Positions 3,617 through 52,962 of a DNA stretch of 64,000 bases are shown here, piece by piece. The notes below the pieces were generated by a model. The model saw nothing but the letters and a program-made list of their open reading frames with translations, did no database searches and had not been told where the DNA came from. Made by a program: the position numbers and the translations under genes. Every line of letters begins with the position of its first letter. Position 1 is the first letter of the stretch. This DNA comes from Candidatus Gastranaerophilales bacterium (GTDB lineage: Bacteria; Cyanobacteriota; Vampirovibrionia; Gastranaerophilales; Gastranaerophilaceae): positions 1 to 64,000 of the forward strand of contig CALVBU010000004.1 of assembly GCA_944325875.1 (NCBI GenBank), read 5' to 3'.

Positions 3617-3645
3617 TTGATAAATATAAAAGAGTTTGTTACAAT
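3617..3645 (+). promoter_or_regulatory. Promoter of leader copy 1
   Basis: TTGATA at 3617-3622 and TACAAT at 3640-3645 have a 17-nt spacer. Transcription should start near 3652, about 30 nt before the upstream ORF. Confidence 0.65.
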
Positions 3646-3670: not shown

Positions 3671-3874
3671 TAAAGGAGGATGTATGCAAAAAGTAGATAT
3701 AGATAGAATTTCGGGGGGGGGGGCTACCGACTAACAGTTAGGATAAGCATTTCCGACTTAGACCTCCGATTAAAAGAAATGAGCTGATAGTAAGCCGTGC
3801 CAATAGACACGGTGATTTGTCGTGCAAATTTTAGTACAAGACCAATTTATACATAATAAATACATGGAGGATAT
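3671..3874 (+). promoter_or_regulatory. Poly-G pilin leader element, copy 1
   Basis: This is one of three homologous leaders in the window. In order: strong ribosome site AAAGGAGGA; a 16-codon ORF (3684-3734) holding eleven consecutive G (3713-3723); a conserved CTACCGACTAACAG segment; ACTTAGACCTCCGAT with ACCTCCG at 3762-3768; a hairpin CCGTG (3795-3799) / CACGG (3808-3812) followed by GTGATTT; TGCAAA; and finally GGAGG at 3866-3870 serving the pilin gene. CCTCCG can pair with TGGAGG at the pilin ribosome site, or CCTCC with the G tract. The block patterns are shared with 29753-29953 and 45987-46187, while the spacers between them differ. I know of no named riboswitch or RNA family that matches. 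Confidence 0.75.
3684..3734 (+). CDS. Leader peptide uORF, copy 1 (16 aa)
   Basis: ATG follows AAAGGAGGA by 3 nt, and a second possible ATG 4 nt upstream leads quickly to a stop. The peptide is MQKVDIDRISGGGATD. The three glycine codons are GGG within the eleven-G tract. The other two leader copies encode 16-residue peptides with the same GGGAT[D/N] end. One extra G would open a different frame reading YRLTVRISISDLDLRLKE to a stop near 3787. Whether the peptide matters or only its translation does cannot be decided here. Confidence 0.55.
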   Translation: MQKVDIDRISGGGATD

Positions 3875-4555
3875 ATGAAAAAGAGAAATGCTTTTACATT
3901 AGCAGAAGTCCTAATAACATTAGGTATAATCGGTATAGTTGCAGCTATGACTTTACCTTCAATTTTGGCTAAGACAGAGAGACAAGAAACAGTTGCGAAA
4001 TTGAAAAAGGTATATAGTGTATTATCTCAAGGTATAAAACATTCTGAAGCGGATAATGGACTAATTTCAGAATGGCCTACGGGTCCTGATATAACTGATG
4101 TTAATGCATATTTTGATAAGTATTGGCGTCCTTATTATAAAAATCCTAAAATTTGTTCATGGGCTGTATCTTGTGGATATTCTAATAATAAGGCATGGAC
4201 GAATTTAAATGGACAAAGAATAGGTTGGGAGATTAAAACGTCAGAAACCCGAGTTTTGTTTATGTTATCTGATGGAACTTTAATATTTAATCCAAGGAAT
4301 ACTACGGATGCTAATGGAAATAAAGTATATGTAAATCTCTTTTATGTCGATTTAAATGGACCTAAGAATCCGAATATTATTGGGAAAGATGTTTTTATAT
4401 TTACTCTTTCTGATAAAAAACTTTTAAGACCATATGGATATGATAAAAAGTATGAAGATTTAGACTGCAGCAAACAAAGTTCAGGAAACTATAATGATTG
4501 TACAGTCAAAATTATTGCCGATGGATGGGCGATAAAAGACGATTACCCTTGGTAA
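3875..4555 (+). CDS. Pilin-like protein, class III-type N-terminus
   Basis: This 226-aa protein begins MKKRNAFTLAEVLITLG, a short basic leader followed by the FTLAEV signature and a hydrophobic helix to about residue 28. Processing by prepilin peptidase is expected after the basic leader, with N-methylation of Phe. The globular part has a conserved block seen in several paralogues here, VDLNGPKNPNIIGKDVF followed by an aromatic strand, which looks like a small Asp/Asn-rich (possibly metal-binding) loop. Cysteines at the C-terminal half may form disulfides. No assembly ATPase or secretin gene is nearby. Its start lies 5 nt after GGAGG and downstream of leader copy 1, so its translation is probably controlled by that element. 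Function (pilus, pseudopilus or secreted adhesin) is unknown. Confidence 0.85.
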   Translation: MKKRNAFTLAEVLITLGIIGIVAAMTLPSILAKTERQETVAKLKKVYSVLSQGIKHSEADNGLISEWPTGPDITDVNAYFDKYWRPYYKNPKICSWAVSCGYSNNKAWTNLNGQRIGWEIKTSETRVLFMLSDGTLIFNPRNTTDANGNKVYVNLFYVDLNGPKNPNIIGKDVFIFTLSDKKLLRPYGYDKKYEDLDCSKQSSGNYNDCTVKIIADGWAIKDDYPW

Positions 4556-15275: not shown

Positions 15276-15500
15276 TTATTTTTTATTTATATTTTTGTAG
15301 TCATTTTCTAAGCTTGTTTGAATATTTAATTTTGAGTTATAAAAGGGTGTCCCTGGATGAAGCATATTGATAATTTGTGTTTCTTTAGAGTCTGTAAGTG
15401 GAAGCTCTTTTGGAAGTCCGCTTTTTGGTGACAATTTAGTTGCTTTAGAGACAACTCTATTGACAGTGTTAGCACTGCCTATTAGGGGTATTTTAACCAT
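15276..15500 (-). CDS. Small hypothetical protein, 74 aa
   Basis: The first gene of the three-small-gene run. It starts MVKIPLIGSANTVNRVVSK, is basic and serine/leucine-rich, and ends NDYKNINKK. SD GAGGAGAAAGG precedes the ATG closely, and a TATAAT at 15536-15541 (minus strand) lies just upstream. No signal peptide by usual rules; no family recognised. A structural or secreted-substrate role is possible but unproven. Confidence 0.6.
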   Translation of the reverse strand: MVKIPLIGSANTVNRVVSKATKLSPKSGLPKELPLTDSKETQIINMLHPGTPFYNSKLNIQTSLENDYKNINKK

Positions 15501-16761: not shown

Positions 16762-17478
16762 TTACCATAGATTGTCTTTATCAATTTCCCAACCATTTCT
16801 AATAATTTTTTCAAAGCAACATATACCGTTTCCGTTTTTTGAACAATCCTCTTTTATTTCATTATCATTTTTAATTTTGCATGCTGGTACAAACCCTTTA
16901 TTTGAAAATACAAAGACAAAAACATCTTTTCCTATAATATTAGGTTTTCCGTTGCCATTTATGTCAACATGTACTATTAAACTATCGCCCTGAGTATTCA
17001 CTCCAAATACCCTTTCAACATAATCATGGTCTCTTTCCAGATATCCGTCCATGTTTATAAAATACCCGTCAACTGTATCAAATGCAATAAATCCCGAACC
17101 GACACCACTAGCATTACTCGCTATTGCACCGTTCATATATTTTGTTCCTGAATTCCAACAACCTTTTGTATTATAGCATTCCTTATTGATTTTTATTTGA
17201 GGTTTAAGGTAATTGATGTACCAATCTTTTATCTTTGATGATTCGAAGGTTAAAGACGAATAATCCCCTTCTGGACAGGCTCTTAGCATTGCCTGAGAAA
17301 GTGTGGAATACATTTTCTTTAATTTATTTACTGCTATTATGTGGTTTATTTTGGCTGTAATTGAGGGTAGTGTCATTGCTGCGACTATGCCGATTATGCC
17401 AAGTGTAATTAGTACTTCTGCTATTGTAAATCCGTGTAATGTTATATATGTTTTATTTTTGTTTAATATATTAATCAT
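16762..17478 (-). CDS. Pilin-like protein, XRE-linked (module 1)
   Basis: This 238-aa protein has an unusually long prepilin leader (16 residues) before GFTIAEVLITLGIIGIVAA. The globular domain carries the VDINGNGKPNIIGKDVFVF block shared with other pilins here, then a Cys-rich end (NGNGICCFEKI). It starts with an ATG 6 nt after a perfect TATAAT with TTGACA 17 nt upstream and no ribosome site, so it should be translated from a leaderless mRNA. It lacks the poly-G leader. It is divergent from a small XRE regulator 53 bp away, the same arrangement as the pilin at 52282. Function is unknown. Confidence 0.82.
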   Translation of the reverse strand: MINILNKNKTYITLHGFTIAEVLITLGIIGIVAAMTLPSITAKINHIIAVNKLKKMYSTLSQAMLRACPEGDYSSLTFESSKIKDWYINYLKPQIKINKECYNTKGCWNSGTKYMNGAIASNASGVGSGFIAFDTVDGYFINMDGYLERDHDYVERVFGVNTQGDSLIVHVDINGNGKPNIIGKDVFVFVFSNKGFVPACKIKNDNEIKEDCSKNGNGICCFEKIIRNGWEIDKDNLW

Positions 17479-29752: not shown

Positions 29753-29953
29753 GTAAAGGAGGAATGTATGCAAAAAGCAAATATAGATAGAATTTCGGGG
29801 GGGGGGGCTACCAACTAACAGTTGAGAAAAGCATTTCCGACTTAGACCTCCGATCGAAAGAAAATGGCTGAAAAGTAAGCCGTGCCAAGTGACACGGTGA
29901 TTTTTGGTGCAAAAAAATGTTCAAATAGAAAATAGTATACAAACGGAGGATTT
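29753..29953 (+). promoter_or_regulatory. Poly-G pilin leader element, copy 2
   Basis: Same block order as at 3671: AAAGGAGG, 16-codon ORF with eleven G (29797-29807), CTACCAACTAACAG, ACCTCCG at 29846-29852, hairpin CCGTG (29880-29884) / CACGG (29893-29897), GTGATTT, TGCAAA, then CGGAGG at 29944-29949. CCTCCG is perfectly complementary to CGGAGG. The loop of the CCGTG hairpin differs from copy 1 (AAGTG versus AATAG), while both stem arms are unchanged, which suggests the stem is under selection. Confidence 0.75.
29768..29818 (+). CDS. Leader peptide uORF, copy 2 (16 aa)
   Basis: The peptide is MQKANIDRISGGGATN, with the same length and ending as in the other two leaders, from an ATG 5 nt after AAAGGAGG. 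It crosses an eleven-G tract. One extra G would give a second frame reading YQLTVEKSISDLDLRSKE. Confidence 0.55.
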   Translation: MQKANIDRISGGGATN

Positions 29954-30694
29954 ATGAAAAAGAGAAATGCTTTTACTTTAGCTGAAGTATTGATAACCTT
30001 AGGAATAATTGGAATAGTAGCGGCAATGACTTTACCAACTCTTGTGTCAAAATACAAGGAAAAACAAAGAGTTACACAACTTAAAAAAGCCTATTCTATA
30101 TTAAATCAGGCATTTACTATGGCTGTAAATGATTATGGTACTCCTGATAATTGGGGGCTTGTAGTAACCAATACCGGAGAAGTCGATGATGATGGTGAAC
30201 CTGTTTTAGATAATAGTGGTGCTATCAAGGCTATGAGTATCTTAAAAAAATATATAAAGCAAAAATCATTGGCTGAGGATGAAATAATAGGATATGTCAG
30301 TTCTCTTGATGGGAGGCAAGCATGGTGGCCTTGGAATGCTTCCGTTGATAAATATATTTTTATAGCTGATGGTACAATCCTTGCTCAAGGATGGATAAAT
30401 TCTGAGTCATGTGTAAATGGTGCTTGTGGAGACTTTTGGGTTGTATTTCCTTCTAGAAATATGAAAATAGGCGTAGATGTGTTTAGTTTTGAGTTTACAA
30501 CAAAAGGTTTTGTTCCCAATGGCATGCAAAATTCAAAATCTAAACCGTTCCAAAAATATTGTAGTACTATAGATGTTTCAGTCCGTCCTGATTTTCAGGG
30601 AAGAGGTTGTGCAGCATGGGTAATATATAATGAAAATATGGACTATTTGCATTGCAATGACCTTAGTTGGGATGGTAAGACTAAGTGTAAATAA
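29954..30694 (+). CDS. Pilin-like protein, leader-controlled (copy 2)
   Basis: This 246-aa protein starts MKKRNAFTLAEVLITLG and has the same N-terminal helix as the pilins at 3875 and 46188. The first 16 bases of the gene are identical in copies 1 and 2. The globular domain is Trp-rich (WWPWNASVDKYIFIADGT), contains a Cys pair (ESCVNGACGDFW), and has VDVFSFEFTTKGFVPNG, a version of the block found in its paralogues. SD CGGAGG is part of leader copy 2. It lies between the sensory hydrogenase operon and hydF but is transcribed in the opposite direction; a link to hydrogen metabolism is not implied. Confidence 0.84.
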   Translation: MKKRNAFTLAEVLITLGIIGIVAAMTLPTLVSKYKEKQRVTQLKKAYSILNQAFTMAVNDYGTPDNWGLVVTNTGEVDDDGEPVLDNSGAIKAMSILKKYIKQKSLAEDEIIGYVSSLDGRQAWWPWNASVDKYIFIADGTILAQGWINSESCVNGACGDFWVVFPSRNMKIGVDVFSFEFTTKGFVPNGMQNSKSKPFQKYCSTIDVSVRPDFQGRGCAAWVIYNENMDYLHCNDLSWDGKTKCK

Positions 30695-45940: not shown

Positions 45941-45969
45941 TTTCAAAAAGACTAAAAATATGTTATAAT
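45941..45969 (+). promoter_or_regulatory. Promoter of leader copy 3
   Basis: A perfect TATAAT at 45964-45969 with a weak TTTCAA 17 nt upstream. The rest of 45739-45940 is AT-rich and shows nothing definable. Confidence 0.5.
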
Positions 45970-45986
45970 AAAGTATGGATAATTAT

Positions 45987-46187
45987 GTAAGGAGGCAAAT
46001 ATGCAAAAGATAAGTATAGAGATGGTTCGGGGGGGGGGGGCTACCGACTAACAGATAAGTCAAGCATTCCTTACTTAGACCTCCGATTTGATGAAAAAGA
46101 GTTGAAGAATAAGCCGTGCCAAAAGACACGGTGATTTGTGATGCAAAATTTTTGAAAAACAGATAATAAAAATTAACGGAGGACTAA
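45987..46187 (+). promoter_or_regulatory. Poly-G pilin leader element, copy 3
   Basis: Blocks in the same order: AAGGAGG, 16-codon ORF with twelve G (46029-46040), CTACCGACTAACAG, ACCTCCG at 46079-46085, hairpin CCGTG (46114-46118) / CACGG (46127-46131), GTGATTT, TGCAAA, CGGAGG at 46177-46182. CCTCCG is perfectly complementary to CGGAGG. Although the sequence before the G tract differs from copies 1 and 2 and there is one more G, the ORF length and frame are unchanged. Confidence 0.75.
46001..46051 (+). CDS. Leader peptide uORF, copy 3 (16 aa)
   Basis: The peptide is MQKISIEMVRGGGATD. Residues 4-10 differ from the other copies, but the length and the GGGATD end are the same. It crosses a twelve-G tract starting within a CGG codon. 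Confidence 0.55.
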   Translation: MQKISIEMVRGGGATD

Positions 46188-47249
46188 ATGAAAAAGAGAA
46201 ACGCATTTACGTTAGCAGAAGTGCTAATAACATTAGGAGTAATCGGAATAGTCGCAGCGATAACACTACCTGTATTAAATCAGGCAGTAAACAAGAAAGT
46301 ACGAGCAGAACAGATACGAACAGTCAAGTACAAATTTACGAAAGCAACGGAAAAAATGGCTAGTTTAGGGTTAATAGGCCCGTATGATAGTACAGCAGCA
46401 TTTGTAGCAGAGTTACAGAAACATTTAAAAGTAGCAAAGGTATGCCCGTCAAGTAAACTAAGAGAATGTTGGCCTTATGATACGATAACATTACTTGACG
46501 GTAAAGAATATGAAGTAGAAAAACTCCAGACAGGTAAGCAGTTTCAAATGAAAAACAGTGATACCGCAGATTATAGCAGTCCTAATGTAGGTATAATAAC
46601 AGCAGACGGAACGCCAATGATACTAAGTTACAATACCAAATGTGAAGCGTTAGACCCTGTAAAAACTTATGGTTGGGGTACAGAGGATAACAAACCAGTA
46701 TCAAATGCAACATCAAACTGTGTCGCAGCAGTGTTTGAAATAAACGGAAGTAAGAAACCAAATAAACAAAACGAGGATGTAGCATTATTCAATGCAAATG
46801 GTCTGGGGAATGCTTGTGCTGTTGAAGTTAATGATAAGTGTTATTCTTCCATTTTTACTCCAACTCCTTTAACAAAAGCTGAGTGTGAAGAGTTCAAAGG
46901 TGATTTGGGTATTTCCAGTTGTAAGGATAATAATGACTATTGGGCTGGAGCGGTAAAACAATGTGGTGGGGTTAATAAAATTCCTACTTCTGGGGAGCTT
47001 GCTAAAATTGCAAGTGCGATATATGTTGGGAATCCTTCAATATCATCAACTCAAACTGTTAATTCCCTAACTTATAAATCAGGTACAGCTTCTGCTTTTG
47101 GTTTGCCAGAACCTACTTTTAAGTTATGGTCTAATTATGCAAATAGCTCTACTGGTGCATATTATAGAAGTTTTGAATCCTCAAGCTCTCTTTGGTATAG
47201 TGCATTTCGTGTAAATTACGCAGTTCAAGCTATATGTATAGTAGATTAG
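46188..47249 (+). CDS. Pilin-like protein with DGR-type variable C-terminus
   Basis: This 353-aa protein starts MKKRNAFTLAEVLITLG, then a helix, then a pilin-like globular part with EINGSKKPNKQNEDVALF at about 185-202. The C-terminal ~140 residues form a different domain with CSSIFTPTPLTKAECEEF, then FKLWSNYANSSTGAYY, WYSAFRVNY and the final AVQAICIVD. That pattern (LWS...S..A.Y...Y..AV.A) is what I know from formylglycine-enzyme/C-type-lectin-like variable proteins diversified by reverse transcriptase. Codon use changes sharply at about 46800, at the domain border. The protein is the largest pilin here. SD CGGAGG is in leader copy 3. Confidence 0.82.
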   Translation: MKKRNAFTLAEVLITLGVIGIVAAITLPVLNQAVNKKVRAEQIRTVKYKFTKATEKMASLGLIGPYDSTAAFVAELQKHLKVAKVCPSSKLRECWPYDTITLLDGKEYEVEKLQTGKQFQMKNSDTADYSSPNVGIITADGTPMILSYNTKCEALDPVKTYGWGTEDNKPVSNATSNCVAAVFEINGSKKPNKQNEDVALFNANGLGNACAVEVNDKCYSSIFTPTPLTKAECEEFKGDLGISSCKDNNDYWAGAVKQCGGVNKIPTSGELAKIASAIYVGNPSISSTQTVNSLTYKSGTASAFGLPEPTFKLWSNYANSSTGAYYRSFESSSSLWYSAFRVNYAVQAICIVD

Positions 47250-52247: not shown

Positions 52248-52284
52248 AGAAACACCTTCCAAGCATTATGGAAGGTGTTTTTTA
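52248..52284. terminator. Bidirectional terminator
   Basis: AACACCTTCC / GGAAGGTGTT perfect 10-bp stem followed by six T lies between convergent ileS and the pilin at 52282. Confidence 0.85.
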
Positions 52285-52962
52285 ATATTTTATTGTTCTC
52301 GGGTAATTTTTAGGTATTTTCCACCCGTTTCTTCTTATTAATTCTGTACAATACGCTCCGTTTCCGGAATTAGGATTGCATCCGTATGATGTATTTGTAA
52401 ATAAAGTTTCTTCTTTTTCATCCCATTCTGCAATAAATGGTAACATACCTTTTTTGTAATGTAGTTTATTGTTTGTTCCTGTCCCAGCTGCATTAAATCG
52501 GAATGCAAATGCATTACTTCCCCAAATTCTATTTTTAATACTTTTTGCATAATTATTCGGATAAAAGAATATATCACTGTTTTGTGCATAAGCAAATGAA
52601 AAGGCACTTCCATCTGCTAATAAATAATAATAATAGTTATTTATTTTTTTTGCTGTCGTGATTTTTATATAGGGACTAAGATATTTTTCAAATACAGCTT
52701 TACTTTGTTCTGCTTTAGGGATTAAATTATTTTCATTATCATATTGGACACCTTGCCAGTAATCGCTCCATGTTTCTGGGGGACCATATTTTAAGCTTGC
52801 AGATATTATTGCTTGATTCATTATTGAATAAAACTTTGCAAGGCGTGTTTCTGTAATTTTATTATAATATGATTGCAATAATGTAGGGATTGTCATCGCT
52901 GCCACTACGCCGATTATTCCTAAAGTTATTAAAACTTCTGCTAATGTAAATCCTCTTTTCAT
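52282..52962 (-). CDS. Pilin-like protein, XRE-linked (module 2)
   Basis: This 226-aa protein starts MKRGFTLAEVLITLGIIGV, a very short prepilin leader. The globular domain is Tyr/Asn-rich, with FRFNAAGTGTNNKLHYKKG and two Cys near the end (YGCNPNSGNGAYCTELI). The promoter TTGACA-N17-TATAAT is perfect and the ATG follows 6 nt later, exactly as for the pilin at 16762, so it should be leaderless. It is divergent from a 72-aa XRE regulator. There is no poly-G leader. Confidence 0.83.
   Translation of the reverse strand: MKRGFTLAEVLITLGIIGVVAAMTIPTLLQSYYNKITETRLAKFYSIMNQAIISASLKYGPPETWSDYWQGVQYDNENNLIPKAEQSKAVFEKYLSPYIKITTAKKINNYYYYLLADGSAFSFAYAQNSDIFFYPNNYAKSIKNRIWGSNAFAFRFNAAGTGTNNKLHYKKGMLPFIAEWDEKEETLFTNTSYGCNPNSGNGAYCTELIRRNGWKIPKNYPRTIKY

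Follow-up and report, generated by a model that had tools for sequence, protein, structure and literature searches.

A multi-copy G-tract leader upstream of prepilin genes in a Gastranaerophilales bacterium: a candidate phase-variable switch acting through the pilin Shine-Dalgarno sequence

The leader and its copies in the window

The window is a stretch of 64,000 nucleotides from a Candidatus Gastranaerophilales bacterium (contig CALVBU010000004.1, positions 1 to 64,000 of the forward strand; assembly GCA_944325875.1), whose genome comprises 2.2 Mb in 41 contigs. Three genes in the window, all three with the N-terminal methylation motif of prepilins (PF07963) above cut-off, are preceded by related leaders that extend from the Shine-Dalgarno sequence (SD) of a short upstream open reading frame (ORF) to the pilin ATG: 3672 to 3875 (copy 1), 29755 to 29954 (copy 2) and 45988 to 46188 (copy 3; Table 1). 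The original prediction had placed these copies at 3671, 29753 and 45987 and had given the order of their conserved blocks; the sequence bears out both.

The leader begins with the SD of the upstream ORF, followed by an ATG and about ten codons, a pure G tract, and CTACC-RACTAACAG, which contains an in-frame TAA. Past the tract lie a block, AAGCATTT, at +22 to +29 and the anti-SD motif CCTCCG, always at +40 to +45. The 3' part consists of a GCCGTG..CACGGT hairpin (at about +71), a linker, the pilin SD CGGAGG and the pilin ATG (at about +145). A TATAAT-like box lies upstream of the leaders (mean best match 5.76 of 6, against 4.89 in shuffles; 38 leaders), and the upstream ORF, which has its SD in 36 of the 38, is presumably translated.

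The G tract is 11 nt long in copies 1 and 2 and 12 nt long in copy 3. The longer tract might suggest that copy 3 is an ON allele, a reading that is ruled out by the loss of one base directly 5' of its tract: the loss restores the OFF frame, so that the G12 peptide ends in ...GGGATD*, as do the G11 peptides of copies 1 and 2. All three copies in the window are thus OFF.

Table 1. Features of the three leader copies and their prepilin genes in the window
Feature	Position	Strand	Basis
Copy 1 promoter-like site TTGATA-17-TACAAT, TG before second hexamer	3617..3645	+	consensus scan
Copy 1 upstream ORF SD AAAGGAGG	3672..3679	+	sequence
Copy 1 upstream ORF, present OFF frame, MQKVDIDRISGGGATD*	3684..3734	+	translation
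Copy 1 G tract, 11 nt	3713..3723	+	sequence
Copy 1 AAGCATTT block, predicted partner pilin codons 3885-3893	3745..3752	+	inverted repeat and fold
Copy 1 anti-SD CCTCCG, predicted partner pilin SD	3763..3768	+	fold and co-evolution
Copy 1 hairpin GCCGTG..CACGGT, weakly terminator-like	3794..3813	+	leader alignment, terminator consensus
Copy 1 pilin SD TGGAGG	3865..3870	+	sequence and fold
Prepilin gene 1, 226 aa	3875..4555	+	Pfam N_methyl
Copy 2 upstream ORF SD	29755..29762	+	sequence
Copy 2 upstream ORF, present OFF frame, MQKANIDRISGGGATN*	29768..29818	+	translation
Copy 2 G tract, 11 nt	29797..29807	+	sequence
Copy 2 masking arm AAAAGCATTTC ... CCTCCG, predicted partners pilin codons 29964-29974 and SD 29944-29949	29827..29852	+	11-nt perfect inverted repeat and fold
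Copy 2 hairpin	29879..29898	+	leader alignment
Copy 2 pilin SD CGGAGG	29944..29949	+	sequence and fold
Prepilin gene 2, 246 aa	29954..30694	+	Pfam N_methyl
Copy 3 promoter-like site TTCAAA-16-TATAAT, TG before second hexamer	45942..45969	+	consensus scan
Copy 3 upstream ORF SD	45988..45995	+	sequence
Copy 3 upstream ORF, present OFF frame, MQKISIEMVRGGGATD*	46001..46051	+	translation
Copy 3 G tract, 12 nt, one base lost just 5'	46029..46040	+	sequence
Copy 3 masking arm AAGCATT ... CCTCCG, predicted partner pilin SD region	46062..46085	+	inverted repeat TTAGACCTCCG/CGGAGGACTAA and fold
Copy 3 hairpin	46113..46132	+	terminator consensus, leader alignment
Copy 3 pilin SD CGGAGG	46177..46182	+	sequence and fold
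Prepilin gene 3, 353 aa	46188..47249	+	Pfam N_methyl

Recurrence of the leader across genomes

A search of the source genome with the core pattern of the leader gave 36 matches, each upstream of a distinct prepilin gene, and none with the reversed-pattern controls; the recurrence of the leader is not due to chance. Three diverged copies (L045, L050 and L066) bring the total to 39 leaders, 38 of them distinct, since one leader exactly duplicates another. With a covariance model built on the leader, matches were found in 11 of 13 genomes of the same genus, including 74 in the genome of a sister species, and in 24 of 191 genomes of the family, where the distant matches are mostly of a simpler form in which the tract is joined directly to the pilin gene. 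The expectation that further copies would be found upstream of pilin-like genes was thus amply realized. No leader was found in viral contigs. Two copies depart from the usual form. At L022 (G000:C10:22983-23123) the leader-bearing prepilin frame is only 56 aa long and is followed by a 168-aa ORF resembling the remainder of a pilin, which is likely to be a frameshifted gene or an assembly error. L127 (G006:C3:108028-108148) has a G18 tract and an AT-rich insert between the tract and CTGCCAACTAACAG, and is probably a decayed switch.

The leaders share 84% identity with one another and pilin residues 1-28 share 90%, whereas beyond residue 30 the identity of the pilins falls to 32%. Simple duplication of whole loci, the outcome that would have spoken against a functional leader, is ruled out by this difference, which indicates that the leader is conserved in its own right or has spread as a cassette. 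The same gradient of identity, together with the exact duplicate leader, would be expected if the leader and the conserved pilin start formed a gene-conversion cassette for antigenic variation, with the G tract as a DNA signal; the guanine quadruplex of Neisseria pilE is the comparison case for such a signal. This explanation is barely credible: it predicts neither the frame structure, nor the OFF bias, nor the co-evolution of arm and SD described below, and promoter-like boxes and SDs stand before nearly all copies, so that silent donors are not evident.

Reading frames of the upstream ORF

The upstream ORF of each distinct leader was translated with the tract in all three length classes. In the usual G11 class it ends 11 nt past the tract, 5' of the anti-SD arm (at +14 in the exceptional L050), and in the next class at +18 in most copies. 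The third class is open through the anti-SD arm in 37 of the 38 distinct leaders and ends at +61 to +118, mostly at +61 to +64, ahead of the hairpin, and in some copies at +94 to +118. L050 has no read-through in the expected class, and another class fuses its upstream ORF to the pilin. Because a single open frame of more than 45 nt is common by chance, weight is put here on the repetition of the frame pattern, on the direct fusions and on co-evolution. At present 34 of the 39 copies are OFF, four are in the read-through class (C11:6641, C14:6753, C16:35723 and C4:138465) and one, on C25, is in the +18 class.

The tract is G11 in 33 of the 39 leaders here and in 32 of 34 in the sister species. 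A freely drifting tract would be expected to vary more than this, except where 11 nt is its mutational equilibrium or where selection favours OFF. Tract lengths in Campylobacter are biased toward G9-G10 (PMC8355987), and by analogy a mutational equilibrium combined with selection for OFF may account for the uniformity of G11.

G tracts in the genome and direct fusions to pilin genes

The genome contains exactly 48 G tracts of at least 9 nt, all of them at the starts of surface genes: 46 lie upstream of, or within the start of, prepilin genes and two at glycan genes. Five prepilin genes and the two glycan genes carry the tract in their own 5' coding part, one base off the length that fuses the start codon to the protein, and all seven are OFF at present. 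Family-wide, 54 direct tract::pilin genes have a single fusing class, of which six are ON and 48 OFF; their tracts are 9-14 nt long and the ON length is 8-13 nt, depending on the locus. An order-wide search for G9 or longer within 30 nt of codons for FTLAEVLIT found the pattern in 53 of 383 genomes, all of one family, and the reversed control gave none. The two tracts outside prepilin genes, L255 (G000:C3:111733) and L259 (G000:C14:26682), belong to a Stealth-type gene and an RgpF-like glycan gene. In G053 (genus g3) and G344 (genus g8) there are 72 and 39 overlapping matches to the direct pattern, and these genomes are good candidates for a population study.

Tract length differs between close relatives. 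The tandem pilin genes of L256 (G005:C42, tracts at 15312 and 16183) have G12 and G10, both OFF, although the 70 nt preceding the tract and the 45 nt following it are identical. Among 16 orthologue pairs from this species and its sister, two differ by one G. Switching would take place within populations. The differences in length bear on the idea that the tract is fixed at G11, with programmed frameshifting or polymerase slippage providing a constant low expression of every pilin without heritable states. The marked uniformity of G11 in the two species is what this idea predicts. It is nevertheless quite unlikely, as read-through alleles are present in the DNA (4 of 39), lengths differ between tandem duplicates and between orthologues, and the direct form varies in both tract and ON length from locus to locus, as drifting tracts do.

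The leaders of L050, L128, L139 and L148 combine the two forms: one tract class continues in frame into the pilin itself, and this points to a possible evolutionary path from one form to the other. Several features by which contingency loci are recognized are found together at the tract-bearing loci of the leader and direct forms, namely a repeat within an ORF, one expressing class, length differences between related sequences and a concentration at surface genes.

The direct fusions also bear on a role of the tract as an RNA target. In the leader of Helicobacter pylori tlpB an untranslated G repeat is bound by the trans-acting small RNA RepG, giving a graded output (PMC8295292). The tlpB system resembles the present one in that a length-variable G repeat in a leader controls the translation of a surface-related gene, and a pure G repeat in the leader of a pilin mRNA could be a small-RNA target in the same way, with the reading frame incidental. 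The repeat here differs from that of tlpB in lying within an ORF and in acting, as proposed, by frame. A small-RNA target is very improbable, given that nearly every copy has the tract inside a small ORF that possesses an SD and that a frame change in related loci fuses the tract to the pilin; the strict three-frame pattern would be left unexplained.

Predicted masking of the pilin SD by the anti-SD arm

Fold predictions pair the arm with the pilin SD and the start of the pilin gene. With the sequence covered to +21, as by a ribosome terminating at +11, the mean predicted probability that the pilin SD is unpaired is 0.0035; with the sequence covered to +76, as after read-through, it is 0.64. 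Shuffling of the arm raises the predicted OFF-state opening of the SD from 0.04 to 0.35 (p=3e-13; 49 dissimilar leaders from several genomes). Cognate arm:SD duplexes are stronger than swapped ones (p below 5e-5; 52 dissimilar leaders). When the swap test is made by genome, the signal is found in 13 diverged leaders of other genomes (p=5e-5). In the two main genomes arm:SD co-evolution is not significant, because the SD part hardly varies; a weak co-evolution is seen there only between the arm and the pilin codons (p about 0.02 over all copies). Cognate pairs include TTTACCTCC with GGAGGTAAA (L128), CTCCAAA with TTTGGAG (L138) and AAAACCTCC with GGAGGTTTT (L154), and unrelated leaders, for instance L149 and L238, are also among the cases; the arm of L149 is unrelated in sequence and yet pairs across its own pilin SD. 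The pilin SD is probably masked in vivo as well. The importance that the original prediction gave to its anti-SD block is upheld, but the block forms only part of the complementarity, as AAGCATTT and CCTCCG pair colinearly with pilin codons and SD.

The compensatory changes that had been expected in the CCGTG/CACGG stem gave little signal: the hairpin is nearly invariant and its covariation weak, and the informative covariation is that of the anti-SD arm with the pilin SD. The hairpin is among the most conserved parts of the aligned leaders and has no firm role in a switch acting on translation. Its conservation would be accounted for if the same frame switch acted mainly on transcription, with termination at the hairpin or polarity of untranslated RNA in the OFF state and read-through ribosomes preventing both. 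In copies 1 and 3 the hairpin fits a loose consensus for terminators, and the read-through frame enters it in those copies that stop at +94 to +118. Set against this are a poor T run (GATTTGTCG, GATTTGTGA) and the usual end of read-through at +61 to +64, before the hairpin is reached, and the arm:SD co-evolution would have no explanation; an action mainly on transcription is therefore considered unlikely.

An upstream ORF with its own SD, followed by a downstream SD that is predicted to be masked by an anti-SD arm, is the layout of a translational attenuator. It would also suit a leader-peptide attenuator in which slowing of the ribosome on GGG codons senses the supply of glycine or tRNA and sets the fold. 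No stall signal was identified on the leader peptide, and stalling on glycine codons is disfavoured because the tracts consist of G only, with no synonymous glycine codon in any aligned copy, and because the arm, at +22, lies beyond the reach of a ribosome that pauses within the tract. With direct tract::pilin fusions that have no attenuator, sensing of this kind is extremely improbable. Nothing points to a ligand-binding riboswitch. The view that the leader belongs to no known riboswitch or RNA family agrees with a search of the window against Rfam 15, which gave 0 matches at or above the gathering score.

A model for the switch

The leader is best explained as a system of slipped-strand phase variation that acts through an SD-masking translational switch, to which we assign a probability of about 0.75. 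This reading is drawn from sequence: from the anatomy of the leader, its frames and conservation, the arm:SD co-evolution of diverged leaders and the tract-length differences between close copies. The pure G tract in the short upstream ORF would gain or lose bases by slipped-strand mispairing, and the pilin SD and start region would be masked by long-range pairing with the arm 22-45 nt past the tract. The upstream ORF of the OFF class ends at +11, so that the ribosome would terminate short of the arm and the pilin SD would stay masked. A one-base change would bring ribosomes in frame through the arm, usually to +61 to +100, where they would displace the arm from its partner and make the pilin SD available for new initiation. 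Since read-through usually stops some 80 nt ahead of the pilin AUG, re-initiation is less likely than unmasking. In related loci the tract has a simpler use, with one frame fusing the start codon straight to the pilin. The simplest reading is that all of these are contingency loci, the direct form being the familiar one and the leader form a variant whose tract is housed in a small ORF of its own and in which a lock in cis on the pilin SD opens upon read-through. The proposal that the leader is a cis-regulator for surface proteins stands, as a leader without an Rfam match; the frame-shifting role of the G tract had been missed.

Comparison with known systems

Gonococcal pilC is a contingency locus of the poly-G/C type. 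In the poly-G/C loci of Campylobacter, as here, a G tract lies near the starts of surface genes, a one-base change shifts the frame, the loci are many per genome and tract lengths are near 9-12 (PMC8355987). Loci of this type differ from the leader form, in which the tract is in a separate small ORF, the pilin is intact in every state and control is exerted through a predicted RNA lock on the pilin SD. Erm-type attenuators also have an upstream ORF and an anti-SD arm that masks the SD of the next gene, and the position of the ribosome decides the outcome; their input is a drug-stalled ribosome, whereas the input proposed here is a heritable tract length. In lex2A/lex2B of Haemophilus influenzae changes in a repeat shift the frame of an upstream ORF and so influence how the following gene is expressed. 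The lex2A/lex2B repeats are tetranucleotides in one operon, in contrast to the G tract and many copies of the pilin leaders, and we know of no SD-masking arm or multi-copy cassette in that system. In Mycobacterium tuberculosis espR a one-base change in a homopolymer alters translation through the structure of the 5' UTR (PMC11898584); this is a single locus with 7G at the transcript start and without a cassette, and it is not known to involve upstream ORF logic. In the open-access literature searched, no report was found of phase variation in the Gastranaerophilales lineage or of an upstream ORF that carries such a tract and is linked to an SD lock. The parts are of known kinds, and it is their combination for which no report was found.

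Implications for the prepilin repertoire

The genome has about 115 prepilin-like genes. Among them, 79 lack the standard leader, and 69 of the 79 are preceded by a divergent ORF of at least 55 aa whose start lies no more than 260 nt upstream; pilins of this kind in the window are at 52282-52962(-) and 16762-17478(-). The divergent ORFs mostly resemble small HTH proteins of the Cro/XRE type, and five of six tested match Pfam HTH families. The pilin repertoire thus seems to be controlled gene by gene, by a G-tract switch or by a dedicated regulator.

A hypermutable homopolymer in a tiny upstream ORF probably sets, in a heritable manner, how far ribosomes travel and hence whether an anti-SD lock on a separate gene is opened; placed as a cassette before dozens of divergent pilins, it would give each lineage a random pilin display. 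If true, this would offer a simple route to the phase variation of a separate, intact gene, which could be searched for in other phyla. It would also predict that a large phase-variable surface repertoire escapes annotation, since an OFF gene passes for an ordinary, intact gene preceded by an unusual leader. And it would account for the way in which a gut bacterium related to non-photosynthetic cyanobacteria can keep more than 100 prepilin genes and express only some of them at a time.
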